This document shows, piece by piece, positions 1-64,000 of a stretch of DNA of 64,000 bases. Position 1 is the stretch's first letter. Each line of letters opens with the position of its first letter. The stretch is taken from the NCBI GenBank assembly GCA_949825065.1, contig OX463855.1, forward strand, positions 41,926,093 to 41,990,092, read 5' to 3'. Both the position numbers and the translations under genes were made by a program. Below the pieces are notes generated by a model, which saw nothing but the letters and a program-made list of their open reading frames with translations, was not told where the DNA came from and ran no database searches. This stretch comes from Odontocerum albicorne (taxonomy: Eukaryota > Arthropoda > Insecta > Trichoptera > Odontoceridae).

Positions 1-10
1 TCATGAATTT

Positions 11-327
11 AGTTAGACTGAATTTAACCAGTGAGTGACGCCAGGCCGTAGATTTCGAAGTAGGGAAACAACAATAAATCATATGACACAATTATGGTTA
101 ATACTGTGCTGTTGTGTAACATAACATAACAAGGCCACTGCAGTTAATGCGGTGCATCGGGGCACGAATAAGATAGGAGTTAGACTGCGATTGAACTGGT
201 GGGTGACGTCAGGTCATAGATTTCTAAGAAGTAGGGAAACAACAATAAATCATATGACAATTAAATCCTGTGGCGTGACAAGGTTACTGCAGTTAATGCG
301 GTGCATCGGGGTACGCATAAGATAGGA
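11..327. repeat. Two diverged direct copies, about 167 bp apart
   Basis: The block starting with gttagactg near 12 recurs at 179. Both copies carry tagggaaacaacaataaatc and then gcagttaatgcggtgcatcg. They differ by scattered substitutions and small indels, so the duplication is old. No coding potential is visible. Confidence 0.8.
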
Positions 328-395
328 ATGCAAAAGATCCATGCCCTATACATTTTAAGTATCGATACTTTTGCGAGTATCGTTACTTTTCCTAG

Positions 396-1262
396 CCCTT
401 GTGTGTACGAGTATATTATAGGAGACCAGATACATTGTATCATATGTACGAGTATAGTATATTATAGGAGACGAGATACATTGTGTGTACGAAGAGTATA
501 TTATAGGAGACCACATACCTTGTGTGTACGAGTATATTATGGGAGACCAGATACATTGTATCATATGTACGAGTATAGTATATTATAGGAGACGAGATAC
601 CTTGTGTGTGCGAGTATAGTATATTATAGGAGACGAGGTACCTTGTGTGTACGAGTATATTATAGGAGACGAGATACCTTGTGTGTACGAGTATATTATA
701 GGAGACCAGATAACTTATGTGTACGAGTATACTATATTATAGGAGACCAGATATTTTGTACCATATGTACGAGTATAGTATATTATAGGAGACGAGATAC
801 CTTGTGTGTACGAGTATATTATAGGAGACTAGGTGGATACCTTGTATGTACGAGTATACTATATTATAGGAGACCAGATATCTTGTATCATATGTACGAG
901 TATAGTATATTATAGGAGACGAGATACCTTGTGTGTACGAGTATATTATAGGAGACCAGATGGATACCTTGTGTGTACGAGTATACTATATTATAGGAGA
1001 CCAGATATCTTGTATCATATGTACGAGTATAGTATATTATAGGAGACGAGATACCTTGTGTGTACGAGTATATTATAGGAGACCACATACCTTGTGTGTA
1101 CGAGTATATTATAGGAGACGAGATACCTTGTGTGTACGGGTATATTATAGGATACCAGATACCTTATGTGTACGAGTATACTATATTATAGGAGACCAGA
1201 TACCTTGTGTGTACTAGTATATTATAGGAGACCAGATACCTTGTGTGTATATACCAGATACC
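396..1262. repeat. Minisatellite, about 36-bp unit with TACGAGTA
   Basis: The unit reads approximately cttgtgtgtacgagtata followed by ttataggagaccagatac. It recurs about 23 times with variants (gagacgag or gagaccag, ttgtatcatatg, an extra agtatagt). Nearly every unit contains TACGAGTA. Short ORFs here are by-products of the repeat. Confidence 0.95.
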
Positions 1263-1439
1263 TAGAGCGAGCGAGAGTGTTAGCAGACCGCAGACAAGCT
1301 GAAGAGGCGAGCTTAAGAGATTAAGGCATTTGGAACAAAATCAGACGCTCTCTGTTATCTAGTTGGTACACAATGTTTTATAAAAAAGGGTTTGCATGTG
1401 GTTTCCACTCCAGATTTATATAATTTCTTTCTGATTGTT

Positions 1440-1556
1440 TGGAAGAGCAATAAACCCGCCAAGTTATACTGTATACTGAATTCAATAAACCCGCCAAGTA
1501 ATACTGTATACTGGATTCAACAAACCCGCCAAGTTATACTGTGTTACTGGATTCAA
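1440..1556. repeat. Three copies of a dispersed-repeat end (about 38 bp)
   Basis: The core aataaacccgccaagttata is repeated three times. Read on the minus strand it resembles the cctggcgg..ttattgcca sequence at 4347 and 54970. This suggests a locally triplicated retroelement 3' end. Bases 1263-1439 show no recognisable feature. Confidence 0.7.
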
Positions 1557-1612
1557 AGTAATTTTAGTACGATTGGAAGAAGAGAAGAACGCTAGACACA
1601 AAACACTTTGAA

Positions 1613-3933: not shown

Positions 3934-3977
3934 GACAATATTTGTCAAAACAGTTTCATGTCATGGTATTTATTTAC

Positions 3978-4262: not shown

Positions 4263-4344
4263 TACCTACATAATATTAAAAATAAATGTGATTTCAAGTG
4301 AATACTTAAATTATATCTATTACACATTACGTTGTATTATTTAC

Positions 4345-4392: not shown

Positions 4393-4616
4393 AAATACGG
4401 ATCAGGTTTTGTTACCTGTCATTTGTCGTGAGTCCGGTAAACTACGATTCGGCCTGTATCATACTGAGGATATGTTCACATAAAAAATAGGTTGATACTT
4501 TTTACCGATTTTAGATTATAATTTACTTGAAACACTTTTACACTATTGCATATTACGAGTATAACATTTATAAAATTGCAAAGTGACTTTGATATATGTA
4601 TGTGTATGTTTAGTAG

Positions 4617-5656: not shown

Positions 5657-6364
5657 GTAGCACAACTCATCCGTATGCGGGTGGATTGCATTTAAAAAAA
5701 TGACATTACTATAGTATATTCGCGTTGATAGAAAAAACATTTCAAAAAAGTTCGACAATCGAGACGAACTCACACCATTCTACAATTGCTATGTACGAGT
5801 ATTAACATACGAGTATATTTAAACGTATTTACCCGCAGGCTGTATAGGTACGAGTAAATACTCTATTGTCACTAATCTCTGCGGCAGATCGAGGCAGGAG
5901 CGTTCTGTGTTGTGTTTGTCACTATTGAAATGCCAATACTTCAACCATCCGCGTCAGTCGTCAGTCGCCTGTCTGATGGACTGATAAGAACACTTGACCA
6001 TACGTGCCACAGGCGAATGTCGTATTTACGGACCCGTTCGGTTCTAAGTCAGCGACCATTATAATATTATATTATAAAAGTACGAGTATATAGGAAAAGT
6101 CCTAAGAAAAATAACAAACTGCAGAAATGTTTCAAGCCGCTATAGCAAATGTGACTAAACTTGAACGCGATTTGAACAATTTCCACCTGTCACATGGCTC
6201 AACGCTAGGAGATTTTGACGTTATACGAGTATAATATTAAAATTAAAAAAAAGTAATATATTAATTTAAATAATGATGTTTTGCCGTAAAGTCTGGTATA
6301 TGGGAGTGAAACGTGTACGTGGAGAAACACTGGGAAGAGCGAATTAATGCTAGAAATCCGTAGA
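5657..6364. other. No gene seen; several dispersed TACGAGTA octamers
   Basis: Unique AT-rich sequence. TACGAGTA occurs around 5795, 5812, 5850, 6084 and 6224. From about 6296 the sequence begins to resemble the flank of the following array. Confidence 0.4.
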
Positions 6365-8501: not shown

Positions 8502-8604
8502 AAAAGTTATTTTTAATGTGAAAATATTATTAGAAATAATATTACTTCGCCACTTTTACATTCGTATATCTCTTAAATACGTTTCGTTATTTATCGACCT
8601 TTGG

Positions 8605-11600
8605 CGGATACCTCGCGATGTGTTTATGTTATGTTGGAAAGGATACCTCGATATGTATTTATGTTATGTTGGAAAGGATACCTCGATATGTGTTTATGTT
8701 ACGAGTATGTTGGAAAGGATACCTCGAGATGTGTTTATGTTACGAGTATGTTGAAAAGGATACCTCGAGATGTGTTTATGTTACGAGTATGTTGGAAAGG
8801 ATACCTCGAGATGTGTTTATGTTATGTTGGAAAGGATACCTCGATATGTGTTTATGTTATGTTGGAAAGGATACCTCGATATGTGTTTATGTTACGAGTA
8901 TGTTGGAAAGGATACCTCGAGATGTGTTTATGTTACGAGTATGTTGAAAAGGATACCTCGAGATGTGTTTATGTTACGAGTATGTTGGAAAGGATACCTC
9001 GAGATGTGTTTATGTTATGTTGGAAAGGATACCTCGATATGTGTTTATGTTATGTTGGAAAGGATACCTCGATATGTGTTTATGTTACGAGTATGTTGGA
9101 AAGGATACCTCGAGATGTGTTTATGTTACGAGTATGTTGAAAAGGATACCTCGAGATGTGTTTATGTTACGAGTATGTTGGAAAGGATACCTCGAGATGT
9201 GTTTATGTTATGTTGGAAAGGATACCTCGATATGTGTTTATGTTATGTTGGAAAGGATACCTCGATATGTGTTTATGTTACGAGTATGTTGGAAAGGATA
9301 CCTCGAGATGTGTTTATGTTACGAGTATGTTGAAAAGGATACCTCGAGATGTGTTTATGTTACGAGTATGTTGGAAAGGATACCTCGAGATGTGTTTATG
9401 TTATGTTGGAAAGGATACCTCGATATGTGTTTATGTTATGTTGGAAAGGATACCTCGATATGTGTTTATGTTACGAGTATGTTGGAAAGGATACCTCGAG
9501 ATGTGTTTATGTTATGTTGGAAAGGATACCTCGATATGTGTTTATGTTACGAGTATGTTGGAAAGGATACCTCGAGATGTGTTTATGTTATGTTGGAAAG
9601 GATACCTCGAGATGTGTTTATGTTACGAGTATGTTGGAAAGGATACCTCGAGATGTGTTTATGTTATGTTGGAAAGGATACCTCGCGATGTGTTTATGTT
9701 ATGTTGGAAAGGATACCTCGATATGTGTTTATGTTACGAGTATGTTGGAAAGGATACCTCGCGATGTGTTTATGTTATGTTGGAAAGGATACCTCGAGAT
9801 GTGTTTATGTTACGAGTATGTTGGAAAGGATACCTCGAGATTTGTTTATGTTATGTTGGAAAGGATACCTCGATATGTGTTTATGTTATGTTGGAAAGGA
9901 TACCTCGATATGTGTTTATGTTACGAGTATGTTGGAAAGGATACCTCGAGATGTGTTTATGTTATGTTGGAAAGGATACCTCGATATGTGTTTATGTTAC
10001 GAGTATGTTGGAAAGGATACCTCGAGATGTGTTTATGTTATGTTGGAAAGGATACCTCGAGATGTGTTTATGTTACGAGTATGTTGGAAAGGATACCTCG
10101 AGATGTGTTTATGTTATGTTGGAAAGGATACCTCGCGATGTGTTTATGTTATGTTGGAAAGGATACCTCGAGATGTGTTTATGTTACGAGTATGTTGGAA
10201 AGGATACCTCGCGATGTGTTTATGTTATGTTGGAAAGGATACCTCGAGATGTGTTTATGTTACGAGTATGTTGGAAAGGATACCTCGAGATGTGTTTATG
10301 TTACGAGTATGTTGGAAAGGATACCTCGAGATGTGTTTATGTTACGAGTATGTTGGAAAGGATACCTCGAGATGTGTTTATGTTATGTTGGAAAGGATAC
10401 CTCGAGATGTGTTTATGTTACGAGTATGTTGGAAAGGATACCTCGAGATGTGTTTATGTTACGAGTATGTTGGAAAGGATACCTCGAGATGTGTTTATGT
10501 TACGAGTATGATGGAAAGGATACCTCGAGATGTGTTTATGTTACGAGTATGTTGGAAAGGATACCTCGAGATGTGTTTATGTTACGAGTATGTTGGAAAG
10601 GATACCTCGAGATGTGTTTATGTTACGAGTATGTTGAAAAGGATACCTCGAGATGTGTTTATGTTACGAGTATGTTGGAAAGGATACCTCGAGATGTGTT
10701 TATGTTACGAGTATGATGGAAAGGATACCTCGAGATGTGTTTATGTTACGAGTATGTTGGAAAGGATACCTCGAGATGTGTTTATGTTACGAGTATGTTG
10801 GAAAGGATACCTCGAGATGTGTTTATGTTACGAGTATGTTGAAAAGGATACCTCGAGATGTGTTTATGTTACGAGTATGTTGGAAAGGATACCTCGAGAT
10901 GTGTTTATGTTATGTTGGAAAGGATACCTCGATATGTGTTTATGTTATGTTGGAAAGGATACCTCGATATGTGTTTATGTTACGAGTATGTTGGAAAGGA
11001 TACCTCGAGATGTGTTTATGTTATGTTGGAAAGGATACCTCGATATGTGTTTATGTTACGAGTATGTTGGAAAGGATACCTCGAGATGTGTTTATGTTAT
11101 GTTGGAAAGGATACCTCGAGATGTGTTTATGTTACGAGTATGTTGGAAAGAATACCTCGAGATGTGTTTATGTTATGTTGGAAAGGATACCTCGCGATGT
11201 GTTTATGTTATGTTGGAAAGGATACCTCGATATGTGTTTATGTTACGAGTATGTTGGAAAGGATACCTCGCGATGTGTTTATGTTATGTTGGAAAGGATA
11301 CCTCGAGATGTGTTTATGTTACGAGTATGTTGGAAAGGATACCTCGAGATGTGTTTATGTTATGTTGGAAAGGATACCTCGATATGTGTTTATGTTATGT
11401 TGGAAAGGATACCTCGATATGTGTTTATGTTACGAGTATGTTGGAAAGGATACCTCGAGATGTGTTTATGTTATGTTGGAAAGGATACCTCGATATGTGT
11501 TTATGTTACGAGTATGTTGGAAAGGATACCTCGAGATGTGTTTATGTTATGTTGGAAAGGATACCTCGAGATGTGTTTATGTTACGAGTATGTTGGAAAA

Positions 11601-12850
11601 GATACCTCGAGATGTGTTTATGTTATGTTGGAAAGGATACCTCGCGATGTGTTTATGTTATGTTGGAAAGGATACCTCGAGATGTGTTTATGTTACGAGT
11701 ATGTTGGAAAGGATACCTCGCGATGTGTTTATGTTATGTTGGAAAGGATACCTCGAGATGTGTTTATGTTACGAGTATGTTGGAAAGGATACCTCGAGAT
11801 GTGTTTATGTTACGAGTATGTTGGAAAGGATACCTCGAGATGTGTTTATGTTACGAGTATGTTGGAAAGGATACCTCGAGATGTGTTTATGTTATGTTGG
11901 AAAGGATACCTCGAGATGTGTTTATGTTACGAGTATGTTGGAAAGGATACCTCGAGATGTGTTTATGTTACGAGTATGTTGGAAAGGATACCTCGAGATG
12001 TGTTTATGTTACGAGTATGATGGAAAGGATACCTCGAGATGTGTTTATGTTACGAGTATGTTGGAAAGGATACCTCGAGATGTGTTTATGTTACGAGTAT
12101 GTTGGAAAGGATACCTCGAGATGTGTTTATGTTACGAGTATGTTGAAAAGGATACCTCGAGATGTGTTTATGTTACGAGTATGTTGGAAAGGATACCTCG
12201 AGATGTGTTTATGTTACGAGTATGATGGAAAGGATACCTCGAGATGTGTTTATGTTACGAGTATGTTGGAAAGGATACCTCGAGATGTGTTTATGTTACG
12301 AGTATGTTGGAAAGGATACCTCGAGATGTGTTTATGTTACGAGTATGTTGAAAAGGATACCTCGAGATGTGTTTATGTTACGAGTATGTTGGAAAGGATA
12401 CCTCGAGATGTGTTTATGTTATGTTGGAAAGGATACCTCGATATGTGTTTATGTTACGAGTATGTTGGAAAGGATACCTCGAGATGTGTTTATGTTACGA
12501 GTATGATGGAAAGGATACCTCGAGATGTGTTTATGTTACGAGTATGTTGGAAAGGATACCTCGAGATGTGTTTATGTTACGAGTATGTTGGAAAGGATAC
12601 CTCGAGATGTGTTTATGTTATGTTGGAAAGGATACCTCGATATGTGTTTATGTTACGAGTATGTTGGAAAGGATACCTCGAGATGTGTTTATGTTACGAG
12701 TATGATGGAAAGGATACCTCGAGATGTGTTTATGTTACGAGTATGTTGAAAAGGATACCTCGAGATGTGTTTATGTTACGAGTATGTTGGAAAGGATACC
12801 TCGAGATGTGTTTATGTTACGATTATGTTGGAAAGGATACCTCGAGATGA
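8605..12850. repeat. 4.2 kb complex minisatellite with 35- and 41-bp units and higher-order structure
   Basis: The 35-bp unit is ggaaaggatacctcgagatg plus tgtttatgttatgtt. The 41-bp unit is the same with CGAGTA inserted after gtta. Most units contain CTCGAG; others have CTCGATAT or CTCGCGAT. The first part repeats every 193 bp (three long plus two short units). A segment at about 9349-10716 recurs 1509 bp downstream at 10858-12225 almost unchanged. No forward frame holds a stop over most of the array, giving overlapping ORFs up to 1295 codons. I regard these as fortuitous. Confidence 0.97.
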
Positions 12851-13075
12851 GATGTGTGCACAAGTATGTTGGTAAACACAGCCACGCTGCGGTTGTCTCA
12901 GCGGGATATTCCTGTTTAGAGATAATCTTTTATTTTGTTTGTATGGACCATTCTACCAATTCGAGTCATTACAAACTGGTTTTATTATTTTGGAACCAGT
13001 TTCCGTGAAGGTTTCGCTTTAGTTTGTCTGACGATTTGTGTAAAATACGCAAGTGCAAGATGCAACTGTTACGAT
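12851..13075. other. No gene seen
   Basis: Unique sequence after the array. The only open frame is a run-on from the minisatellite. Confidence 0.5.
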
Positions 13076-13243: not shown

Positions 13244-13584
13244 ATCAATCGATGCATATTTTCATTATTCAGGGTTTTTTTCGAGTAAGAACTCAGAAAT
13301 CAGGAGACTATCATTCAAAGGTTGATCTGTTTACAGAAATACTCGTACTTGCTAACATACTCGTACCTGCTAGATGCCAGTAATATGTACTTTTCTGGAA
13401 GAGGTATCGATCCGGTCACTTGGAAATACGGGATCGGGATCGCGATTTAACGCAAAATAAGTTTATCACGTGAATACACGGGATCAATATACGAGTATAT
13501 GGTACAATACAATGTGTTACAAGTGCTCTTCTTAGAAAACCAGCGAGACTTGTTTATTTTAGAGTAACATCGGGAATCGCAACC

Positions 13585-13647
13585 GTACAAGTTATTTTAG
13601 TGTGTTCAGGAAACAACATTTCCTGAACACACTTAAATAACTTGTAC
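13585..13647. repeat. Near-perfect 29-bp hairpin, 5-nt loop
   Basis: The left arm at 13585-13613 pairs with 13619-13647 at 28 of 29 positions around the loop caaca. The right arm ends in a TACGAGTA octamer. It could be a fold-back element, a MITE remnant or a small-RNA precursor. Upstream, 13246-13584 shows no gene but holds four more octamers. Confidence 0.9.
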
Positions 13648-13679
13648 GAGTATACGTGCATTAGCAACAAAATTTCCCA

Positions 13680-15045: not shown

Positions 15046-15224
15046 TATAAAAAACACAGCGAATATTTAGAGGTCATCCGTGTCAACTTCCCTGACTGCG
15101 AACTAGGAGTAAGCCGGAACATGGATAAGCCATGAGAGAAGGTGATCATAACCTTTTATTATTTTAATTGGGAAGAAAATAGTAGTGACATTACATCACA
15201 AAAATATGTTATATCCGATGGTGC

Positions 15225-15444
15225 TAATATTATACAATACGAGGTTATGTTAAGAGGTATGGCAGACTAATATTATACAATACGAGTATATGTTAAGAGG
15301 TATGGCAGACTAATATTATACAATACGAGTATATGTTAAGAGGTATGGCAGACTAATATTATACAATACGAGTATATGTTAAGAGGTATGGCAGACTAAT
15401 ATTATACAATACGAGTATATGTTAAGAGGTATGGCAGACTAATA
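15225..15444. repeat. 43-bp minisatellite, left part (about 5 copies)
   Basis: Unit: taatattatacaatacgagt plus atatgttaagaggtatggca plus gac. It continues after the mariner insertion at 16729. Each unit carries an ATACGAGTAT core; one early unit reads acgaggt. Confidence 0.95.
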
Positions 15445-16728
15445 TTAGGTCCTTACATATGAAATTGGCGTTTTGCCGTACTGGCAACTTTGATCTCAAA
15501 TATCTTCTCTTTGGTTAGGAATTTCAAATTCAAATTTATACAGCTATTTACTCAAGTATTTGTGTTTCGAAAATTATAATTCATTTGTTTTTTTCTCAAT
15601 TGTTTTTTTTCTTTGTGTCACTCAGTTTACAAAATGGAAAACTTGAAATATCGCGTTATTTACGAGTACGAGTTCCACCGTGGCACCAGTGCTGCAGAAA
15701 CGGCTCGAAGGATTAATGATGTGTATGGTGACGGTGCCGCAAAAGAAAACACAGTGCGTTTTTGGTTCCAACGTTTTCGTTCTGGAAATTTCGACCTGCA
15801 AAACAAGCCCCGTGGACGGCCGGAGACCAAAGTTGATAATGAAGAATTGAAGGCTATTGTGGAAGCGGATCCATCGCAAACCACGTCCGAGTTAGTAGGC
15901 TGCGGTGTTAGTGATAAAACTGTTTTAATCCACTTGAAGCAAATTGGGAAGGTGAAAAAGCTTGAAAGGTGGGTACCTCACGAATTGAGTGAAGCAAATC
16001 AACAAACGCGCGTTGACTGCTGCGTTGCATTACTCAACCGGCACAATAATGAAGGGATTTTGAATCGAATCATTACCTGTGATGAAAAGTGGATCCTGTA
16101 TGATAATCGGAAGCGCTCATCGCAATGGCTGAACCCTGCCGAACCAGCCAAACCATGCCCCAAGCGAAAATTGACTCCAAAAAAGTTACTTGTGAGCGTT
16201 TGGTGGACTAGTGCTGGTGTCGTTCACTACAGCTTTCTTAAATCTGGCCAGACGATTACGGCAGATGTCTATTGTCAGCAACTGCAAACCATGATGGAAA
16301 AGCTAGCTGCTAAACAACCGAGGCTGGTTAATCGCTCTAGGCCACTGCTGCTTCATGATAACGCTAGACCACACACTGCACAACAGACGGCTACCAAATT
16401 AGAAGAGCTTCAATTGGAATGTCTAAGACATCCACCGTACTCTCCGGACCTTGCCCCAACAGATTACTATTTTTTTCGAAATTTGGATAACTTCTTGCAA
16501 GGGAAAAAATTCAACTCCGATGGGGCAGTCCAAACCGACTTCAAAGATTTTATTGATTCCCGTCCGAATGGTTTTTTTAGTAAAGGGATCGATGAACTAC
16601 CTATGAGATGGCAAAAGTGCATAGATAGCAATGGTACATACTTTGATTAAATAAATATATTACATTAAAAAAAAATCAACTTTATGTTCCTCCCAAACAA
16701 AACGCCAATTTCATATGTAAGGACCTAA
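15445..16728 (+). mobile_element. Complete mariner element, cecropia-like, inserted in the 43-bp array
   Basis: The 1284-bp element has identical 31-bp terminal inverted repeats (15445-15475 and 16698-16728) beginning TTAGGTCCTTACATATG. It is flanked by TA at 15443-15444 and 16729-16730. The target was a TA within the repeat unit ctaatattatac, so both flanks are the same minisatellite. Identical termini and an intact ORF suggest recent insertion. Confidence 0.95.
15634..16650 (+). CDS. Mariner transposase (cecropia-like), apparently intact, 338 aa
   Basis: DNA transposase that cuts and pastes its own element at TA dinucleotides, acting in the nucleus. I chose the ATG at 15634 (MENLKYRV) because it opens the conserved N-terminal helix-turn-helix region; the frame upstream lacks an ATG. 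Visible family features are WFQRFRSG, RWVPHEL, the first catalytic Asp in TCDEKW (about residues 148-153), the second in LLHDNARPHT, and the third in YSPDLAPTD 35 residues later, giving the D,D34D signature of mariners. The ORF ends with YFD just before taaataaatat. Length is normal for the family (about 340-350). No frameshift or internal stop is present, so activity is possible. Subfamily is judged from similarity to the Hsmar1/cecropia type and the TTAGGT terminus. Confidence 0.95.
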   Translation: MENLKYRVIYEYEFHRGTSAAETARRINDVYGDGAAKENTVRFWFQRFRSGNFDLQNKPRGRPETKVDNEELKAIVEADPSQTTSELVGCGVSDKTVLIHLKQIGKVKKLERWVPHELSEANQQTRVDCCVALLNRHNNEGILNRIITCDEKWILYDNRKRSSQWLNPAEPAKPCPKRKLTPKKLLVSVWWTSAGVVHYSFLKSGQTITADVYCQQLQTMMEKLAAKQPRLVNRSRPLLLHDNARPHTAQQTATKLEELQLECLRHPPYSPDLAPTDYYFFRNLDNFLQGKKFNSDGAVQTDFKDFIDSRPNGFFSKGIDELPMRWQKCIDSNGTYFD

Positions 16729-16730
16729 TA

Positions 16731-17972
16731 TTATACAATACGAGTATATGTTAAGAGGTATGGCAGATTAATATTATACAATACGAGTATATGTTAAGAG
16801 GTATGGCAGACTAATATTATACAATACGAGTATATGTTAAGAGGTATGGCAGACTAATATTATACAATACGAGTATATGTTAAGAGGTATGGCAGACTAA
16901 TATTATACAATACGAGTATATGTTAAGAGGTATGGCAGACTAATATTATACAATACGAGTATATGTTAAGAGGTATGGCAGACTAATATTATACAATACG
17001 AGTGTATGTTAAGAGGTATGGCAGACTAATATTATACAATACGAGTGTATGTTAAGAGGTATGGCAGACTAATATTATACAATACGAGTGTATGTTAAGA
17101 GGTATGGCAGACTAATATTATACAATACGAGTGTATGTTAAGAGGTATGGCAGACTAATATTATACAATACGAGTGTATGTTAAGAGGTATGGCAGACTA
17201 ATATTATACAATACGAGTATATGTTAAGAGGTATGGCAGACTAATATTATACAATACGAGTATATGTTAAGAGGTATGGCAGACTAATATTATACAATAC
17301 GAGTATATGTTAAGAGGTATGGCAGACTAATATTATACAATACGAGTATATGTTAAGAGGTATGGCAGACTAATATTATACAATACGAGTGTATGTTAAG
17401 AGGTATGGCAGACTAATATTATACAATACGAGTGTATGTTAAGAGGTATGGCAGACTAATATTATACAATACGAGTGTATGTTAAGAGGTATGGCAGACT
17501 AATATTATACAATACGAGTATATGTTAAGAGGTATGGCAGACTAATATTATACAATACGAGTATATGTTAAGAGGTATGGCAGACTAATATTATACAATA
17601 CGAGTATATGTTAAGAGGTATGGCAGACTAATATTATACAATACGAGTATATGTTAAGAGGTATGGCAGACTAATATTATACAATACGAGTGTATGTTAA
17701 GAGGTATGGCAGACTAATATTATACAATACGAGTGTATGTTAAGAGGTATGGCAGACTAATATTATACAATACGAGTATATGTTAAGAGGTATGGCAGAC
17801 TAATATTATACAATACGAGTATATGTTAAGAGGTATGGCAGACTAATATTATACAATACGAGTATATGTTAAGAGGTATGGCAGACTAATATTATACAAT
17901 ACGAGTATATGTTAAGAGGTATGGCAGACTAATATTATACAATACGAGTGTATGTTAAGAGGTACGGCAGAC
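16731..17972. repeat. 43-bp minisatellite, right part (about 29 copies)
   Basis: Continuation of the 15225 array after the mariner insertion. Units alternate in blocks between cgagtatatg and cgagtgtatg, again indicating block homogenisation. Confidence 0.95.
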
Positions 17973-18195
17973 TTTTTAGGGATCATCAGTCAATTGAACA
18001 GTATTAAAAATAAAAGTAATATAACCTTTGACCTGATATTTGTAAGAGAAACGAATGTTTTAGTAACATAAGATGACCTTTTACCAAAAGATTATCACCA
18101 TCCTATCCACCTTTAAATATACTCGTACTCGTAACTATCACTGATTTTGAAGACTACGCTTCATTTCCAAAATACAACTATAATATTCACCAAGA

Positions 18196-19188: not shown

Positions 19189-19710
19189 CTTTTTTTCTGG
19201 ACAACGGACAATTTCATGAAAAATGCAATCAATGTAAAAATAATTATATAAATTTATTAAGAAAAAAAAGACAAGCATTCCATGTCGCATGTTCTACCAT
19301 CAGAAATGGTCAGAAATCGTCTCCTGTTGATGGGATTAGAAATGTATTAAACTCGTATTTGCGGACTCTTTGAAGAACATGTACGAAAATGATTCACTGA
19401 ATGCATCGCATCGCATCACATACGTTCGTATTCGAATACCGGGAATCTCGATGCGTTTTCGTTACTTTCGACGAAGTACTCGTACAATCGTTAAAAAATA
19501 ATAAATTTATTGTAACTTCTGCTGAATCGGCTGATCCTGACAATGTCACTTTTAGCATATTCTCTTCAATAAATCATTGTTGGAAAGTCTATTTCAACAA
19601 ATATGAAAATCTAATTTTCTCTCGTCAACATACCAGAAACATACCATTTTTATTTTGTTTTCTGCCATACGTTTTTGTTGTTTTCTTTTTTTTTTCTATT
19701 TATTATTTAA

Positions 19711-41194: not shown

Positions 41195-41224
41195 TAAGGG
41201 TCCGTTGGTATACTCGTATAGTAT

Positions 41225-43908: not shown

Positions 43909-45106
43909 CCCTTCTTGATCGGACCCTGCAAACTTTTGGACAGAAGTAAAAGTAGCTCTTCCTATCTATGAAAGCAAAATAGCGTGATAAAATTAAGGAT
44001 CCCCTCCCCGGTTGATTGCAGAAAATGATTACTACATATTTTCTATCAGTTTATGGAAACGCAACGGCTAATTTTAATACAAATAATATAAAAGTAGAAC
44101 ATCTAATGGCAGAACTATATCACTTCATTGCATTTCCAAAGGCGACATCATGAAGATCTTCAATTGTTTGCAAGAGCCATCGGACTCCGACCAGATGAAT
44201 ACTCGTAGTCAGCCTTGAGTGATGTCTCGAGGCTTGCGCTGATTCGTTATATACGAGACTGAACTTGAACCTTAAGACCCAAGACTCAAGTTGGAAAGTA
44301 ACTAGAGTCTGCTCAATACGCAAATCAGGATATACATTCCACGTTCGCAACTAAAGACCTGTCGCTGTCGCTGTTCTTCCAGTGCTACCGACAATATTTT
44401 AAACAATTTAGCACACTCGATCGAGTCATCAAGTTTCATCAAAACTGATTCGAAATCAGCATAGTCTATTGCTCGAGAGGTCGACAGTTACCAGCCCTCC
44501 TTCTGTTTCGTGGTATAGGGCCACCGAGAAAAGTATGGTCGGAGCGAGTGAACGAAACAAATAAAAGGGGTATGAGAAATACAAGGAGCTTTAAGAGATG
44601 TACGGATGTGGAGAAGGCTAATTAAGTATTCTTTGTCCTCTCTAACAGGGAAATGGCGTGATAGTTTTTAAATAAAAAAGTGGGTATAATATACAATAGA
44701 AATAAATCACAACAAAAATAAAGCACATTATTTTATTATATTTTAGTGTAAAATTAGGTTTTGTCATCGTAAATATATAAAGTAATTCAAGAACCACTTT
44801 TAATTTAAACATAATTAATCTGTTTCAAGTTTGCAAACACAACACAACACAACATAACATAACGATTTCATTTCTTGTCGACCCACTGTGAGGGACACCG
44901 ACAGTACAACATATAGTATAGGGAGGGGGTCGCAACAACAATAAAAACAAGTTTACTAAGTTTTACTCGTATTTTAGATTGAGAATACATTACAATACAT
45001 CTTATAGTATGTACGTGTAGGTATGTTATACCCCTTATATACATTATATTATATACAGGCCCCTTGTATACATTATATTATATTATATAAGCAATTGTGT
45101 ACAGTA
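43909..45106. other. No gene seen; weak retroelement trace near 44510-44640
   Basis: A plus-strand reading RGIGPPRKVWSERVNETNK near 44512 resembles the GRPRK.W tail of insect retroelements, but too little remains for assignment. The rest is AT-rich and featureless. Confidence 0.3.
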
Positions 45107-45690
45107 GTTTATAGCGGTGTTTCTCAACCCCTCGGGGCTACAGAACATTTGAAGGGGACCACAGGACAAAAATCTACTTTTGGGAACCCGGAGCAAACTC
45201 TAAATATTATCATAAAATTATATGAAAATGGTTAAAATTCAATAAGTGTACACTGTGTGCATATATACACTCATTCAAATATTATATTAGATTTGAATAT
45301 TAAGTAGATTTTGAAACTAAAATATAATTCAAAGTTAATGGAAAAATTTTCGATTTAATTACGCATTATTATGGCAAAAATTTATTTATTTTTTATATCG
45401 AGGATTTATCGCTTATATCACTAAAAATATACTCGTACTAGCTTGTGCAACCGATAGCGCTACTTCAATGGCCGGCAGATATCGAGGATTTATCGCTTAT
45501 CTAAAAATTTTGAGAAGAGATAGTCGGTGTAAAGTGTGATATTTTACCTATCAGATATATTAAAAAAAAAAATATTTATTAAACAAACAGTTACAAGGGA
45601 GAAATTGTAATCTCATGAAGTGTAAAAAAGTCATAATCACTCTTCTCAAAAATAATATTGTACGAGTAATATTGTGCAGTCGATACTGTA

Positions 45691-47393: not shown

Positions 47394-48232
47394 ATTATTT
47401 TTTCAATTCTAGTTCAAATTTATTTTTTAGTATGTAGCTTCTTATTTTAAATTTTTTTGGGTTGAGGTCTTTTTAATTATCATTGTAACATTTATTATCG
47501 CTTTATTCAAACCATTCTTGAGTGTGTAAAGTGTAAAGTTTGACATATTGTTGAGCAAAGTGCCAACTACTCGTATATTTATTTATTCATTAATTTTAAA
47601 TGACCACAGCTTTAAAAAAAAAAAATTACTATCAATTATCTAAAAACTATCAAAGTAACAGAGCAATGAAACAAACTTTCAAATATATCACATAATATAA
47701 TTAAAAATCAATAATAAAACATGAACACATAATAAAATGGAAAAGTTTATGTATAAAATATATGGCACAAGTATATCGAAAATAAAAATTACAATTACAT
47801 ATTTAACTAAAAACTGATTTAAATTCATCATGGTTTATTAAAAAGTAATGCGAAAATCAATATTGAGAAATCTAAAACACTTTTGATTTCAGTTTCCTCC
47901 CGGAACAACTGGAATTGCCCACCTCCATCGTGTTCCCCAATCTGTGCAATATGTCATCTTAGGTTTGAGCGAATATGACTTATTTTCTAAATCTCCCAGT
48001 AGCCGTTAAGTCGAAAATGAAACAAAACATACTGTGACCGTGAAACACAAAATGTGTATGCAGTAGCTTTGTTCAAATTTTCAACACAATTATGAGACAA
48101 ATGAAAATTGATTCGCTGGTATTGTTGAAATTAGCATACGCAATTTTACAAATAACATTTTGGATAAAGTGGTGGGGCGGGTTGACATTTTTATCGGAGA
48201 TTTGAAGATCTTTCTTCGTTCAGTTTTATTTT
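47394..48232. other. No gene seen
   Basis: AT-rich unique sequence; one octamer near 47568. Confidence 0.45.
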
Positions 48233-48520: not shown

Positions 48521-49361
48521 TAGGAAGAAGTTATTTGGTGCGGTGGGAAAGGATTTTTGACATTGTCTCATCATAATGGGAGAAAAAGAGGAACCATAAA
48601 TTGTTATTCATAAACTAATTTCATATTATACTTCCAATGAATACATTTCAAGTAAGTAACAGACTATGAATAAAGTTGATGTATAGCTATAGCTACATCT
48701 ACAGATAAATAGACCAGCATTTATCTATCGCGTGTAATTATTGCAATGTTAAATATTTGTTTGTTTAGTTTAATAACAATTTATGGCGTGGAAATATAAT
48801 CCTTATAACCAGATTTGTACTTTTCTCCCGATACGGAGAGAGTTGACTCCTTTCTGTAGAATGGCGGTGATTTTTCTCGGCAGAAAAAAACCTAGAGATA
48901 ACAACTTAAAAAAATCCTACCCATCCCACCAGATCACTTATTCTTGCTTTAACAATAACACCATCTAGTGAGGAGATACAGATGGTACCTCTGTAAAAAC
49001 AAAAAGCCAACCAACCCAACCACCCGATATGGAAAAGTTTTCCAAGTTTCAATGAAAAAGTTATCCTTTCCCATCGATAGGCATTCCACAACTCGGGTTT
49101 AATATTAGACATACTATAGGTGGATCGCCTATTAAAAATAACCATACGCTACTTTCTCAAGAGTTGACATAAAAATAAAAATTGATCACGGGTCCCACCA
49201 AACAAAATAACTGGAAGAATCGAGAAATGTAGAACATAAAGATACAAGTATATGCAACAATAAAATATTTTGATTCCAGATTGTTACCTTGTATGGTATG
49301 TAATATAACAATTAACAAGTATGAAGCAACGACTTTCCAGCTAGTTTATTACATTTTAATA
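48521..49361. other. No gene seen; short inverted echo of the 55-bp array
   Basis: ctttaacaataacaccatc at 48948-48966 is the reverse complement of the array-unit junction gatggtgttattgttaaag with one change. No exon recognised. Confidence 0.4.
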
Positions 49362-50650
49362 TTAGGTGTACAAATAAGTTTCCGCCGTTTTTTTATCAAA
49401 AATTGGGCATTTATTGTGAAAGAACGGAACCTCATGTTTTATTCGAAGTATTGCCCATCGCTTGCCACTACCTTTTCACATCTTTCTGGCAGCATACGGA
49501 TACAGCGTCGGAAGAATGCTTCATCTTTTGAGGCTATCCACGAATCGACCCAATTTTTGGTATCTTCATATGATGTGAAGTGCTGCTCAGACAGGTCATG
49601 CGTCATCGATCGAAACAAGTGAAAATCAGAAGGAGCAATGTCTGGTGAATACAGCGGGTGGGGTAAAACTTCCCAATTGATTGTTTCCAAAAAGGTTTTG
49701 ACCGGCGCCGCAACATGTGGACGAGCATTATCATGCAGGAGAAGAATTTTGTCGTGTCTGGAGTAGCAGTGGGCGCGCTTTTCCTCGAGTGCTCGACTCA
49801 ATCTCATCAATTGTGCTCGGTAGACAGCCCCAGCAATGGTTTCGTTCGGTTTGAGCAACTCATAATACACGACACCAAGCTGATCCCACCAAATACACAA
49901 CAAGAGTTTTTTTCCATGAATATTTGGCTTAGCTGTAGATGTTGAAGCATGGCCAGGGGTTCCCCATGATTTCTTCCTTTTTGGATTATCATAGTGGATC
50001 CATTTTTCATCACCAGTGACTATACGGTGCAGAAAACCCTTTCGTTTATGCCTGGCAAGCAGCATTTCACATGTGGAAAATCGGCGTTCAACGTTTCTCG
50101 GTGTCAGTTCATATGGAACCCAATTTCCTTGTTTTTGAATCATTCCCAATGATTTCAACCTATGTGAAATTGCTTGTTGAGTCACTCCTAATGTAAGTGC
50201 AAGTTCTTCTTGCGTTTGGCACGAATCTTGATCCAATAATACTTCCAATTCCGCGTCTTCGTACACTTTCGGCCTTCCGCTACGTTCTTTGTCTTCGATG
50301 TCAAATTCACCGTTCTTAAACTTTTGAAACCACTCACGACAACTTCTCTCACTTAAGGCAGCCTCACCATATGCTTCTACAAGCAATCGATGCGCCTCAG
50401 CTGCAGATTTCTTCAAATTGAAGAAGTAAATCAAAAGTTCCCGCAAATGACGCTTATTCGGCTCAAAACTTGACATTTTCGAACACAAAAAAATATGTTA
50501 TACTGATAAAAATTCACTAATATTTCAAGGTCATGTTGTTGACAGATGTCCAACCTTACGATAATGACATTTTACATCTGACAATTTTAACCATAACTTA
50601 CTGGTGGCGCCAACTTTTGTCAAACGGCGGTGACTTATTTGTACACCCAA
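49362..50650 (-). mobile_element. Complete mariner element, mauritiana-like (Mos1-type)
   Basis: 1289 bp, flanked by TA at 49360-49361 and 50651-50652. Termini TTAGGTGTACAAATAAGT and TTGGGTGTACAAATAAGT pair across about 28 bp with a few mismatches. The GGTGTACAA core is that of the mauritiana subfamily. Confidence 0.93.
49439..50476 (-). CDS. Mariner transposase (Mos1-like), apparently intact, 345 aa
   Basis: Cut-and-paste DNA transposase. The ATG at 50476 gives MSSFEPNK, the start expected for this subfamily, and total length equals the 345 residues typical of Mos1-type proteins; the frame upstream has no ATG. Visible features: N-terminal HTH ending CREWFQKFKNGEFD, second HTH around TLGVTQQAISHRL, the linker motif NWVPYEL, catalytic TGDEKW (about residue 156), LLLHDNARPH and YSPDIAPSD with D,D34D spacing, and the C-terminal LPERCEKVVASDGQYFE. 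No stop or frameshift. Potentially active, subject to whether the slightly unequal termini still function. Confidence 0.95.
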   Translation of the reverse strand: MSSFEPNKRHLRELLIYFFNLKKSAAEAHRLLVEAYGEAALSERSCREWFQKFKNGEFDIEDKERSGRPKVYEDAELEVLLDQDSCQTQEELALTLGVTQQAISHRLKSLGMIQKQGNWVPYELTPRNVERRFSTCEMLLARHKRKGFLHRIVTGDEKWIHYDNPKRKKSWGTPGHASTSTAKPNIHGKKLLLCIWWDQLGVVYYELLKPNETIAGAVYRAQLMRLSRALEEKRAHCYSRHDKILLLHDNARPHVAAPVKTFLETINWEVLPHPLYSPDIAPSDFHLFRSMTHDLSEQHFTSYEDTKNWVDSWIASKDEAFFRRCIRMLPERCEKVVASDGQYFE

Positions 50651-50652
50651 TA

Positions 50653-51150
50653 ACATTCAAAACAAGCAATACACGTATGCTTTATTCAATATAGTAGACT
50701 ACCATACTTGCATATGTTCAATTTAAAACTACAGTGAAACCCCTAAATTGAAGAGATAACTAAAGAGAGTGTTAATGAAGAGAAAATATAAATGTGTTAT
50801 ACGAGTATATTACTGACATTCTGATACTAAATATAAGGATTATTATATTTAAGGTCGATTAGAGGTTAGCACAAACTTTGCTAAAGCGAAGCGCATGTTA
50901 AAAAGCATGGAACGAAAGAGACACGCAGAGAAAGTAAACTTGGATTCATCCACGGGTGTAACTGGAAAGCGCCCAAAAGCTGAGGTCTTCCGGTGTACAA
51001 TGCAATGATTATAATCAGATGAAATCTAATTTTCATCCGCTTTTTATGATTTTGCAGATTTTTTAACGTTACAGCTTTTTGACAATGAAGGACGAAAGGT
51101 ATCGTAGATCCTACATACCATGTTCGGTAGTGGACGGTCAAGAAGTCAAA
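50653..51150. other. No gene seen
   Basis: A short plus-strand basic stretch (about 50885-50995) has no recognisable family. One octamer near 50802. Confidence 0.35.
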
Positions 51151-58205: not shown

Positions 58206-58575
58206 GTAAAAGCATTCCCTCGTAAATAGTAAATAGCATTTAGTAACAAGCGACGAGTCAGACGGTTGCGAGGAGAACTGTTTCCTGAGTTCACTCAACA
58301 ATACCATACATGTACGAGTAGTTCCATGGCATCAATCTAAAAGCATTCCCTCGTAAATAGTAAATAGCATTTAGTAACAAGCGACGAGTCAGACGGTTGC
58401 GAGGAGAACTGTTTCCTGATTTCAATCAACAATACCAACTCAACAATACCATACATGTACGAGTAGTTCCATGGCATCAATCTAAAAGCATTCCCTCGTA
58501 AATAGCATTTAGTAACAAGCGACGAGTCAGACAGTTGCGAGGAGAACTGTTTCCTGAGTTCACTCAACAATACCA
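58206..58575. repeat. About 130-145-bp direct repeat, 3 copies
   Basis: taaaagcattccctcgtaaa begins each copy at about 58206, 58338 and 58483. Small internal deletions separate the copies. Includes tgtacgagtagttcc. Confidence 0.9.
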
Positions 58576-58583
58576 ACAATACC

Positions 58584-59157
58584 ACAATAGTTTGATTCAT
58601 GATTGACTGAGAGCTAATATCAGTGGCAACTTGCTCCGCAACCATTTGCCATGTACTCGTACAATAGTTTGATTCATGATTGACTGAGAGCTAATATCAG
58701 TGGCAACTTGCTCCGCAACCATTTGCCATGTACTCGTACAATAGTTTGATTCATGATTGACTGACAGCTAATATCAGTGGCAACTTGCTCCGCAACCATT
58801 TGCCATGTACTCGTACAATAGTTTGATTCATGATTGACTGACAGCTAATACCAGTGGCAACTTGCTCCGCAACCATTTGCCATGTACTCGTACAATAGTT
58901 TGATTCATGATTGACTGACAGCTAATATCAGTGGCAACTTGCTCCGCAACCATTTGCCATGTACTCGTACAATAGTTTGATTCATGATTGACTGACAGCT
59001 AATATCAGTGGCAACTTGCTCCGCAACCATTTGCCATGTACTCGTACAATAGTTTGATTCATGATTGACTGACAGCTAATACCAGTGGCAACTTGCTCCG
59101 CAACCATTTGCCATGTACTCGTACAATAGTTTGATTCATGATTGACTGACAGCTAAT
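58584..59157. repeat. 77-bp minisatellite, about 7.5 copies
   Basis: Unit: caatagtttgattcatgatt plus gactgacagctaatatcagt plus ggcaacttgctccgcaacca plus tttgccatgtactcgta. Carries TACTCGTA in each unit. Confidence 0.96.
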
Positions 59158-59580
59158 AAGAAAACATTGGGAAGTGTTAGCCGGTTAATACTCGTAATAA
59201 TTCATGTAAGACTATAGACGTATGAACATGCCAATACTCACAGTTAAAATTGTTTAAAATTTGAAATTAATAAAAAAAACATGCGTTTAGTAAACATCGT
59301 TAATTTCAGCAGTTATTTCTCTAAAGCTTTCTCTTTAAATACTAGTATTGCACTAATCCAATCCTCTTTACTTGAAGTAATAAAGCCATTATATATTGTA
59401 TCTGTTGTCTTGAAGAAAATTACGATAACTGCATAATTGCTTTCATTTGAGGATAGCTTCTCAATCTGTACTATTTTTCATCTTGAAATTATCAGAAATT
59501 GATCAAAATTCGCAAATGTCCGCTACTGTGCTAGGAATGAGTTTATAAATCCGGAATTTTCCATAAACGTTTTGTTGTTT

Positions 59581-59765: not shown

Positions 59766-59772
59766 TTTTATT
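59766..59772 (-). terminator. Candidate poly(A) signal for the TMEM245-like gene
   Basis: The minus strand has aataaa within acttttattta, about 375 nt beyond the stop codon. Other AT-rich signals could serve instead. Confidence 0.35.
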
Positions 59773-60337: not shown

Positions 60338-60521
60338 CTGAAACAACATAGCCAAATTATTTATAGAAACATATATTTTCAGTTCGCTCATCGTGTACAA
60401 TGTTTTTTTTTTAATTTCTGCAACTGCAAATATTTACAAATTTGCTAAGCTCTGAAATCACTGAAAAATTTCTCTTTGAAAATGAGTTAACTGGGTTTGA
60501 CAGACTAGCTTTTTAAAATCT

Positions 60522-61612
60522 TAACCTGTTCCCTGACCAGAGAGACTTCAAGTCATTTACTTAATCTTGTCTCGAGCATGTTACCAATATGACAATGATA
60601 TATCTTGCCTGGCAGTTTAGCAGTTTAATCACTAGTGGCGAGTATCAGGAAGACAGAGTATATCAAATACAATCTTAAGCTGGTCCATGACTAGAGAGAC
60701 TTACGTGTAAACCCATTGATCTTGTCTTGTACTCCCACTGCCCTGAACGTGTTACCAATATCCCAATGGCGGGCATCGGGAAGACAGAGTATATCAAATA
60801 GAATCTTAAGCTGGTCCATGACTAGAGAGACTTACGTGTAAGCTTATTGATCTTGTCTTGTACTCCCACTGCCCTGAACGTGTTACCAATATCCCAATGG
60901 CGGGCATCGGGAAGACAGAGTATATCAAATAGAATCTTAAGCTGGTCCATGACTAGAGAGACTTACGTGTAAGCTTATTGATCTTGTCTTGTACTCCCAC
61001 TGCCCTGAACGTGTTACCAATATCCCAATGGCGGGCATCGGGAAGACAGAGTATATCAAATAGAATCTTAAGCTGGTCCATGACTAGAGAGACTTACGTG
61101 TAAGCTTATTGATCTTGTCTTGTACTCCCACTGCCCTGAACGTGTTACCAATATCCCAATGGCGGGCATCGGGAAGACAGAGTATATCAAATAGAATCTT
61201 AAGCTGGTCCATGACTAGAGAGACTTACGTGTAAGCTTATTGATCTTGTCTTGTACTCCCACTGCCCTGAACGTGTTACCAATATCCCAATGGCGGGCAT
61301 CGGGAAGACAGAGTATATCAAATAGAATCTTAAGCTGGTCCATGACTAGAGAGACTTACGTGTAAGCTTATTGATCTTGTCTTGTACTCCCACTGCCCTG
61401 AACGTGTTACCAATATCCCAATGGCGGGCATCGGGAAGACAGAGTATATCAAATAGAATCTTAAGCTGGTCCATGACTAGAGAGACTTACGTGTAAGCTT
61501 ATTGATCTTGTCTTGTACTCCCACTGCCCTGAACGTGTTACCAATATCCCAATGGCGGGCATCGGGAAGACAGAGTATATCAAATAGAATCTTAAGCTGG
61601 TCCATGACTAGA
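60522..61612. repeat. 131-bp minisatellite, about 8 copies, in the TMEM245-like gene's intron
   Basis: Unit includes cttaagctggtccatgacta and gagagacttacgtgtaagct and ccaatggcgggcatcgggaa. The first copy is diverged; the later ones are almost identical. Confidence 0.96.
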
Positions 61613-61689
61613 ACTATATGCCGATACAGATACGGTAACTGTATCTAATACAAATTCAAATCTAGAAACAACTGAGGATGAAAATATCC

Positions 61690-63130
61690 CGATGATCTTA
61701 CCAGGACAAATCAGATACTCAATTTAACGGAATGAAATCCGGTAAGGCCACTGGTACCGACGGTTTTTCCATTGATGTCTTTGAACAAACAGGTCGAGAA
61801 GTGGATACCATCTTATCAACACTTTTCAACAAGTGCCTTCTAAAAAAGACATTCCAGAAGATTGGAAATCTACAACCGTAATACTTCTCCATAAGAAAGG
61901 CGATCAAGAGGATTTTAAGAACTACCATCCAATCGGCATGTCACGAGTACCTATTCTATACAATTTTTTAATCAAGATCTTAACTAACCGACTCGAGAAC
62001 TTTTTGACACAAACCAACTACGAGAACCAGCTGGATTCAGGAAGGGTTTCAGTACCATGGATCATATGCTGCGGGAAATAATAGAATGATGTGAGGAATA
62101 CGAAATTCCTCTATACCTGGCCTTTGTCGACTACGAAAAGGCCATTGACTCAGTCAAGAAAATTGCCATACTACTATAGAAGCTCTAAAGACACAAGGCT
62201 TTGGTATTGATAAGGCATATGTTACAATCAGTTGTTCAATAACATCCATAAGGATGCAACAGCAAAAATACATCTCCACAAATCCTCAAGATAAGGGAGT
62301 TCGTCAAAGGGATATTATTTCCCCAAAATTATTCAGAGCTACACTTGAATATGCCTTTAGTAAAGTGGAATGGAATAATACAGCCTGACGATTGATGGAT
62401 TTGCAGATATCGTTATATTTTTACAAAACCCGAATGATCTTCAGCACACACTGCAGGAATTGGCAGAGGTCAGTAAAGAAGTTGGTTTAAAAATGAATAT
62501 ATCAAAAACCAAATATATGATGAACAGCATTGCTACCTCAAAACCAATAATCGTAGATGGAAAGTTGCCCGAAATCATCCAGAAACATGTGTATTTGAGC
62601 CAGATTAATTCCTTTGTAGGTGGCATATCGGAAGAGATAGCACGAAGGATAAAGCTAGCATGGAGCTCATTTGGACAACATCTTCAAAAGTAATCTCCCA
62701 ATATTTTTTAAACAAAGGGTCTACAACCAGTGTATTCTCCCACTACTTACGTATGGCTGCGAGACATGGACGCTCACAGTAAAGAACACACAAAAGTTCC
62801 AGACCGCACAAAGGGGCATGGAGAGATGCATGTTGGGATATATTAAAAGAGACCGTAAACTAAACACCTGGATTCGCAACAAAACAAAGGTGTGCAAGAA
62901 AATGAAGTGGCAATGGGCAGGACACGTAGCCAGAATGTCAGATTGCCGATGGACATCCGAAATAATCTAATGGTACCTAAGAGGCATGAAGAGGCCCAGA
63001 AGAAGATCGAAGGTACGCTGGATAAATTAAATCAGGAAGCATGGCAGCATCACATGGCATCAACGAGCAAAAAACCTAACTATTTGGAGTCAACTTGGGC
63101 AGACCTTCATCCAGCAGTGGATGGTTCCTG
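61690..63130 (+). pseudogene. RTE LINE relic (reverse transcriptase), heavily decayed
   Basis: Reads through the RT domain in several frames: SGKATGTDGFSIDVF near 61740, DIPEDWKSTTVILLHKKGDQ, FKNYHPIGM, a LAFVDYEKAIDSV block (first catalytic Asp), GVRQRDIISPKLF, a shortened ADIVIF catalytic box near 62402, NISKTKYMM, YGCETW and WAGHVARMSD. Stops and frameshifts break every block. It is a longer relative of 4617-5656. It sits antisense within the putative intron of the TMEM245-like gene. Confidence 0.88.
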
Positions 63131-63422
63131 GTTGATATTTATTTTAGATAGTTACTCGTACAGCTGTTGAGCATACAATTAATGATTACATGGACATAGC
63201 TAAGAAAAATAATGAATTTTTGGTTACCTATTGAAATAATGAATATTAGAGCCTATCATGTAAAATAGAATTCAAACAACGAATAATTGTAAAATGAGGT
63301 GTAATGTGTGTTGATATGCAAAGAAGTCAGAAGAAAATGTCAGTGCTTCGAAAGAAAAAAAACGGATTGGAATTTTGAAGCATGGAAAATGATATAAGAC
63401 AGAGAAATGTATGGTAGAAGTC

Positions 63423-64000
63423 TACGAGGCGTATCCAGAAATTAAGTGTACTGAGGCTCTCACGACCAGATGGATTTCATTTTCGACATGTTGGCTACAC
63501 TTCCGTGTAGCCTGACCCTTCCCCTCCGCAACGAGACCGGTTCGAGGTCAAAACGTTGAGAAGTGTCAACGCGACAACACGTTTAGTGAAAAATATCAAC
63601 CCAATCTCCCGCCAAATGCGAAATTTTGTAAAAAGGCAAGAGTTTTTGAGGCACTGCAAACTCCATGGAGATGAATTTCTCCGCTCCATCGTTACTGGAG
63701 ATGAAACTTGGGTTGCACACTACACGCCTGAAACCAAAAGGCAGTCTCAACAGTGGTGTCACACCTCTTCAGATTACTATCTCTTTACCTCCCTGAAGCT
63801 GCACATGGGTGGAAAAAGGTTTTCAACCGACGAGGAGGTAAAGGAGGAGGTGGAGAAGTGGACGGAGGGGTTGGCGGGAAACTACTTCGAGGAAGGCATC
63901 AAAAAGTTGATACCCCGCTTCACCACCTGCATTGAGAGGAATGGCGACTATGTCGAAAAATAGCTTACATATGTACTACGGTAACCACGTAATTTTTTTG
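63423..64000 (+). mobile_element. Internally deleted mariner (same family as 25243), cut by window end
   Basis: Left terminus TA|CGAGGCGTATCCAGAAAT. The copy keeps the 5' UTR, a piece around EFLRHCKLHGDEFLRSIVTG with DETW, and the C-terminal LKLHMGGKRFSTDEEVKEEV part. It lacks most of the DNA-binding domain and the segment holding the second and third catalytic residues. The right terminus lies beyond 64000. Confidence 0.9.
63556..63963 (+). pseudogene. Deleted mariner transposase remnant
   Basis: An open frame of 135 codons fusing the first catalytic region (VTGDETWVAHYTPETKRQSQ) directly to DYYLFTSLKLHMGG after an internal deletion. Not functional as a transposase. Confidence 0.9.

Follow-up and report, generated by a model that had tools for sequence, protein, structure and literature searches.

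Abundant CGAG octamers in the genome of Odontocerum albicorne are probably excision footprints of CGAG-tipped mariner transposons

Tc1/mariner transposons such as Mos1, Hsmar1 and Sleeping Beauty are reported to target TA, to duplicate it, to leave tip nucleotides behind after end joining and to prefer AT-rich palindromic targets (PMC7827188, PMC7913693). The nicks of Mos1-type mariners and Sleeping Beauty lie 3 nucleotides (nt) inside the element (PMC7827188), and Tc1/mariner footprints have been put at 2-4 base pairs (bp) (PMC7913693). Minos, a Tc1-like element from Drosophila hydei, has a CGAG tip beside TA, as read from a primer (PMC3680223), and a reported footprint of 6 bp (PMC10992017), which together predict the octamer TACGAGTA/TACTCGTA. 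Here we analyze this octamer in a 64-kilobase (kb) stretch of the trichopteran insect Odontocerum albicorne (GenBank assembly GCA_949825065.1, contig OX463855.1, positions 41,926,093 to 41,990,092), hereafter the window, and in the single 1.287-gigabase (Gb) assembly to which it belongs and from which all results derive.

The marks in this genome share the tip and the footprint length of Minos, but they are natural marks numbering several hundred thousand, and the identifiable CGAG-tipped residents are DD34D-type mariners. They differ from the footprints of Mos1, Hsmar1 and Sleeping Beauty, which are reported to leave 3 nt, in keeping 4. The tip letters recur in the human mariner Hsmar2, whose ends hold CGAGGG and whose rebuilt transposase is described as cutting irregularly (PMC3770610), which is neutral on a 4-nt stagger. 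Natural excisions of DNA transposons have been recorded genome-wide by comparison of Asian and African rice, where 8 of the 94 putative excisions reported were perfect and the rest carried deletions or filler (PMC4423477), whereas here one clean word is read hundreds of thousands of times within one genome. The kind of mark is already known from the 6-bp footprint of Minos; what is new is its scale and its likely source, DD34D mariners that apparently cut at 4.

Abundance of the octamer in the window and in the genome

The octamer occurred 158 times in the window (129 TACGAGTA and 29 TACTCGTA), against 1.85 expected under a dinucleotide model, and was the most over-represented of all window 8-mers, in agreement with the massive enrichment described in an earlier prediction made from the letters of the window alone (the original prediction). 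Tandem arrays held 121 of the 158, with 68 at 8606-12849, 18 at 16725-17973, 17 at 410-1249 and 18 across six others; being array copies, these represent few events. The other 37 lay outside arrays and used both strands, so the predicted dozens of such sites were found; each of the 12 coordinates quoted for them was at most 4 bases from an actual octamer, and the tandem double placed at 18121-18133 was present as TACTCGTACTCGTA at 18120-18133. Within the non-array part of the window (35,451 nt), the 37 octamers compare with 0.78 (order 1) or 1.1 (order 2) expected, and the octamer was again the top 8-mer, with a z score of ~35 versus ~7 for the runner-up TA-N4-TA word. Arrays, mostly of long units, made up ~45% of the window, versus 8% of 15 further 10-kb stretches taken elsewhere in this genome.

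Those 15 stretches contained 40 octamers in 137 kb of non-array sequence, against 2.75 expected, with 0 to 14 per stretch, and the octamer ranked first among their 8-mers. Genome-wide, 381,502 octamers were counted (190,753 + 190,749), more than 12 times the reversed control word (30,151; 15,081 + 15,070), and the enrichment thus survived the genome-wide count, one of the refutation tests that had been proposed. Judged by the reversed word, ~30,000 of the genomic octamers are expected by chance, and some others are array copies. Single-base variants of the octamer numbered 118 versus 96-102 expected, compared with 78 versus 3.3-3.8 for the intact word (orders 1-3), corresponding to a mean divergence of roughly 3% by our own arithmetic, with a wide error. 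A search of Rfam returned no match. In a protein search with 4,689 matches, the organism names noted among the 120 listed were those of arthropods, a weak clue to the host given that mariners move between hosts. Among the literature matches listed, none described scars of this sort in comparable numbers, and none of the papers containing the word TACGAGTA was on transposons, judged by title.

Presence and absence of the 6-bp insert at matched TA sites

Comparison of matched copies showed that the net change is from TA to TA-CGAG-TA or TA-CTCG-TA. The array at 8600-12860 contained 68 units with the 6 bp (TTATGTTACGAGTATG) and 40 without (TTATGTTATG), and in the array at 24309-24697 the 6 bp were present in 2 copies and absent in 5. 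An interspersed repeat copy at locus L011 reads ATACTCGTA, and three further copies are 6 bp shorter there in alignment. These matched copies bear out the proposal of the original prediction that CGAG is inserted at TA with duplication of the TA, which is also backed by the doubles in both relative senses described below. Outside arrays, such alignments cover the minority of sites for which a second copy was available.

One TA of the L011 repeat, which has thousands of genomic copies, served as a trap for further inserts. Empty copies matching ACATGACAAGAAATATACAYAATTTG exactly numbered 11,084 genome-wide, and 51 of the 100 listed were of the T form (counted by eye), giving ~5,650 T copies. 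A genome-wide search found 154 T-form copies with 1-14 bp inserted at the trap TA, ~2.7% of ~5,800 T-form copies, and most of the 100 inserts listed, to which the following counts refer, had the form of a footprint. The inserts ended in TA in 95 cases, as expected of a footprint with an extra target TA, and were 5 bp (55), 6 bp (31), 4 bp (7) or of other lengths (7, four of which were plain TA repeats). The 6-bp inserts were CGAGTA (14), CTCGTA (13), CTCTTA (3) and CTAGTA (1), and the 6-bp footprint of TA plus CGAG or CTCG known from Minos was thus found at the trap TA. The CGAGTA and CTCGTA inserts are the tip letters of a transposon in either sense and match the resident CGAG-tipped mariners. 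Among the 5-bp inserts, 53 of 55 were TA-N3-TA, with TAA/TTA (13), CAA/TTG (11), TAG/CTA (11) and TCA/TGA (5) as N3; these 3-nt inserts fit the footprint class of Mos1, Hsmar1 and Sleeping Beauty. TA-N3-TA and TA-N2-TA inserts, which have other Tc1/mariner footprint lengths, occurred both at the trap TA and at a TA inside mariner copies; those at the trap resemble footprints of other Tc1/mariner tips (TTA, TTG, CTA, TCA, ACA and CA). The word TACAATA/TATTGTA was mildly enriched (119 versus 74, order 3), an excess that TTG-tipped mariners leaving 3-nt scars could explain, but the word is too AT-rich for counting to be proof.

We removed the insert and built a tree from 40 copies of the repeat: 10 of the 15 CGAG, 8 of the 13 CTCG and 2 of the 3 CTCT copies listed, plus empty copies of the T form (12) and the C form (8). 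The 10 CGAG rows required 10 changes and the 8 CTCG rows 8, as many as with shuffled labels in 500 of 500 trials, indicating that neither class is clustered. All five labels taken jointly showed some clustering, with 19 changes versus a shuffled mean of 23.1 (4 of 200 shuffles reached so low a value), and the C-form copies grouped in one clade. Support for the tree is weak (stars on 3 of 37 inner branches), and one row (L089) is very long. Mean distances were 0.197 among CGAG copies, 0.196 between CGAG and CTCG copies and 0.248 among empty T-form copies. On this tree the scarred repeat copies are placed as separate events. The C form (CACA) was without a CGAG scar among zero-mismatch matches, which had been considered as proof of target preference; this was dropped and is not used as evidence, since the C form is a young clade (mean distance 0.040, sample of 8), so that its lack of scars proves nothing and may be explained by age.

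Doubles of the form TACKMGTACKMGTA were found at 1,944 places genome-wide, versus 162 for the control. The 50 listed comprised 24 in the same sense, 11 and 6 in the two opposite arrangements and 9 containing CTAG, and 5 of the 24 same-sense rows came from two runs, of four and of three. Slippage predicts one sense only and repeated separate events predict ~2:1:1. By a rough estimate made by hand from the base composition, the CTAG-bearing doubles were near chance. We also considered words expected from mixed mismatch repair (CGCG and CTAG), but they showed no clear excess (TACGCGTA 2 versus 1.3 expected; TACTAGTA 3 versus 1.7).

Resident mariners, target preference and the source of the inserts

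Three CGAGG-tipped mariners reside in the window. The first (25241-26577, minus strand; tips CGAGG/CTATGG) lies between TA dinucleotides and contains an open 355-codon DD34D transposase frame (25346-26410, minus strand) with Pfam Transposase_1 and HTH_48, D-34-D spacing and TA-flanked inverted ends; its closest solved relative is Mos1 (E value 2.2e-44). The second (34871-36195, minus strand; tips CGAGG/TTAGG) retains only a 151-codon open transposase piece, and the third (63423-64000, plus strand) is truncated by the window end. Their ends at 25241, 34871 and 63423 read TA-CGAGGC(A/G)TATCCAGAAA(G/T)TAAGTG. Exact matches to the G form, TA-CGAGGCRTATCCAGAAAGTAAGTG, numbered 9,870 genome-wide (4,933 + 4,937), versus 0 for the reversed control.

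CGAGG mariners occupy the very TA that is elsewhere empty or scarred, and the trap TA was accordingly seen in three states: empty, occupied by a CGAGG mariner and scarred by CGAG or CTCG. The trap flank followed by CGAG, with at most one mismatch, was found at 57 places, which were 37 scars, 9 CGAGG-tipped elements and 11 others, among the last one CGAGAATG end and one CTAGG-tipped end. The 9 occupants had at least four end types; 7 carried the mariner end signature TCCARAAA, and the other 2 have CGAGGG ends beginning CGAGGGTGG and CGAGGGTCA, known by tip only. Five of the 9 were fetched, and 4 of these span both flanks, with a 935-956-bp mariner, a matching right end (tip CGAG twice, CTAG twice), a duplicated TA and the repeat continuing beyond.

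To obtain a target profile, we took 40 resident-end flanks, from ~36 elements, at the first 40 of the 100 end places listed. The base before TA was A, G or C (T in 1 of 40), the second base was never G, and the third was A or T only. The flanks of 154 scars correlated with this profile (log-odds r = 0.795), exceeding the maximum of 2,000 random TA sets (0.496), and control TA-N4-TA words with three G/C scored lower on it (p 5e-11). The scar flanks were less strict than the resident flanks, with T before TA in 11% versus 2%. The inserts show exact presence or absence of 6 bp, occur in both polarities and as separate events at one site, and share a target preference with the resident mariners. 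Two other traps had failed: the mariner end CGAGGCRTA-TCCAG gave 1 match, a nested end, and CTTCCGTGTA-GCCTG gave 4, none of them CGAG. They had been read as showing that the scars are older than the mariner family, a reading dropped after the target profile was obtained; both TAs are flanked left and right by G/C in third position, as in 0 of 40 resident flanks, so zeros are expected there.

The original prediction named no agent, and the evidence points to two steps, insertion of a CGAG-tipped Tc1/mariner element at TA followed by its departure and end joining. We hold with high confidence that the octamers are excision footprints of some such element, as judged from sequence comparison, and they are probably those of CGAG-ended transposons represented by the resident CGAGG-tipped DD34D mariners. 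In the proposed mechanism, a CGAG-ended element would insert at TA, duplicating it, and would later excise with a 4-nt stagger, leaving 4-nt 3' overhangs. Two facing CGAG overhangs could pair through their outer C and G, and the two inner mismatches would form a heteroduplex that is resolved to CGAG or CTCG. A heteroduplex repair model was reportedly put forward for Minos by Arca and co-workers in 1997. End joining would then seal the gap, probably retaining 4 nt of one tip and the second TA. The CGAGG mariners, rather than a lost element with the same tip, would be the scar makers, and most of the ~380,000 genomic octamers are likely to be scars of departed mariners.

Several observations weigh against this assignment. 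A 3-nt nick at a CGAG tip predicts TACGATA/TATCGTA, and this class accounted for 0 of 100 inserts listed in each of the two traps (the repeat TA and a TA inside mariner copies), so that the CGA/TCG residue of the usual DD34D footprint was not found there and the family must use a stagger other than the usual one. Minos, for which both a 6-bp footprint and a CGAG end are reported, is Tc1-like and not a mariner (PMC10992017, PMC3680223). Apparent 6-bp differences at L014:4454 and L023:6471 were not upheld in longer alignments. One of the five fetched occupied sites (L116) was not closed on the right within 1.5 kb, and one exact flank-plus-CGAG match, the CGAGAATG end, is an occupant or variant without mariner assignment. 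Some resident CGAGGC mariners start one of their ends with CTAG, CTAT or TTAG rather than CGAG (L006, L113, L115 and window positions 26577 and 36195), and CTAG inserts are rare, with CTAGTA in 1 of 100 listed per trap and CTAGTG once more in the mariner-copy trap. A well-placed TA inside mariner copies had 164 inserts, and among the 100 listed CTA/TAG (59) far outnumbered CGAG/CTCG (8), which indicates that recent activity there was not mainly that of CGAG elements; inheritance may account for some of the CTA/TAG count, since mariners multiply.

The most serious alternative is that the octamers are footprints of a Minos-like (Tc1-like, DD34E) CGAG-tipped element that has since been lost or has decayed beyond recognition. 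It draws on the TACGAG end and 6-bp footprint of Minos and on the abundance of Tc1-like transposases, with 1,568 PF01498 candidates in the genome, all 150 of the 150 scored exceeding the family cut-off. However, a search for the 25-base Minos end, allowing 3 mismatches, gave 0 matches in 1.287 Gb, a result compatible with distant relatives. Eight Tc1-like loci were fetched, 6 with recognizable ends, and their 12 tips were CACT (5), CAGT (3), TAGT (2), CAGC (1) and CGAG (1). The last belongs to L107, a candidate with one TACGAGC end that was rejected, its partner end being CAGT and those of its relatives CAGT, TAGT, CACT or CAGC. The Tc1-like loci formed two families, with ends TACACTGGCGGTCATTGAAATG (L106 and L108) and TACAGTCTGTTTGACAAG (L104, L107, L109 and L110). 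The occupants of the trapped TA speak for mariners by their end signature in 7 of 9, the two CGAGGG ends and the one CGAGAATG match being without assignment, and CGAG scars also occur inside mariner copies of a family 3-8% different from the copies in the window; so late a maker would be expected to leave relics. We therefore regard a lost Minos-like element as unlikely and the CGAGG mariners as a considerably better candidate source.

Other explanations fare worse. Amplification of the octamer together with host sequence, in array units or repeat subfamilies, so that few events explain the count, is true within the arrays with their 121 octamers, and the CGAG and CTCG repeat copies listed were all of the T form. 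Outside arrays it is largely refuted by the 37 sites in unrelated flanks, the 40 in the other stretches and the separate placement on the tree of the scarred repeat copies, whose mutual distance (0.197) is similar to that of unscarred T copies (0.248), and as a general account it is very improbable. A functional word under selection, for instance a binding site, would agree with a sharp 8-mer used on both strands, but would not be expected to show 6-bp presence and absence at TA in repeats and minisatellites, 2- to 3-nt inserts at the same TA, or a mariner-like flank preference, and we give it hardly any credence. Least credible of all is an assembly or polishing artefact, since array copies combine the octamer with inherited point changes (~11 of 31 aligned 43-bp units read TACGAGTG) and since separate events on the tree and a transposase-like flank preference speak against it.

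Positions in the window and implications

Outside arrays, putative TACGAGTA scars lie on the plus strand at 4554-4561, 5794-5815 (two, starting at 5794 and 5808), 5849-5856, 6081-6088, 6224-6231, 13490-13497, 13645-13652, 21713-21720, 27328-27335, 31892-31899, 32552-32559, 32660-32667, 39758-39765, 45661-45668 and 50800-50807. Those on the minus strand lie at 13340-13347 (TACTCGTA on the plus strand), 13358-13365, 19477-19484, 21486-21493, 23957-23964, 32537-32544, 37816-37823, 38829-38836, 39012-39019, 40541-40548, 41211-41218, 44200-44207, 44964-44971, 45430-45437, 47568-47575 and 63153-63160. The putative double scar at 18120-18133 (sites 18120 and 18126) is also on the minus strand, and two putative scars of opposite senses, at 36863 (minus) and 36872 (plus), share 36863-36879.

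The tandem arrays, all given on the plus strand, are those at 410-1249 (17 octamers), 8606-12849 (68 units with and 40 without the insert) and 24309-24697 (unit of 53 bp, insert present in 2 copies and absent in 5), a 43-bp minisatellite at 15224-17973 with 22 octamers over two parts, and arrays at 58293-59200 with 10 octamers. The minisatellite is split by a TTAGG-tipped mariner at 15443-16730 that sits within it, a 1,284-bp element that looks recent, with 24 identical bases in its end repeats and an open transposase frame at 15580-16650. An octamer lies in frame within this open transposase frame (15661-15668, plus strand) and may be due to chance; its context, TACGAGTACGAG at 15661-15674, encodes YEYE and may be native sequence, and a 6-bp scar would preserve the reading frame. 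A further mariner, tipped TTAGG/TTGGG, lies at 49360-50652 and carries a minus-strand DD34D frame that is open over 352 codons.

Counts of cut-and-paste transposons usually rest on the copies still in place, whereas here departed copies can be counted and their tip letters sort the likely source. On balance, and reading from the sequence patterns described above, we lean toward the view that a CGAGG-tipped branch of the DD34D mariners differs from Mos1 in cutting with a 4-nt stagger and is the origin of ~350,000 clean scars, which together with scars of 2 and 3 nt from other tips at these TAs would make any high-copy repeat a copy-by-copy archive of lineage-signed jumps. This raises for mariner biochemistry the question of how a CGAGG-tipped DD34D element leaves 4 nt when Mos1 leaves 3. 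If this view is true, insertions of 4, 5 and 6 bp at TA would be a large natural class of indels in such genomes, and the history of germ-line excision and end joining of extinct and living transposon families would be measurable from a single assembly.

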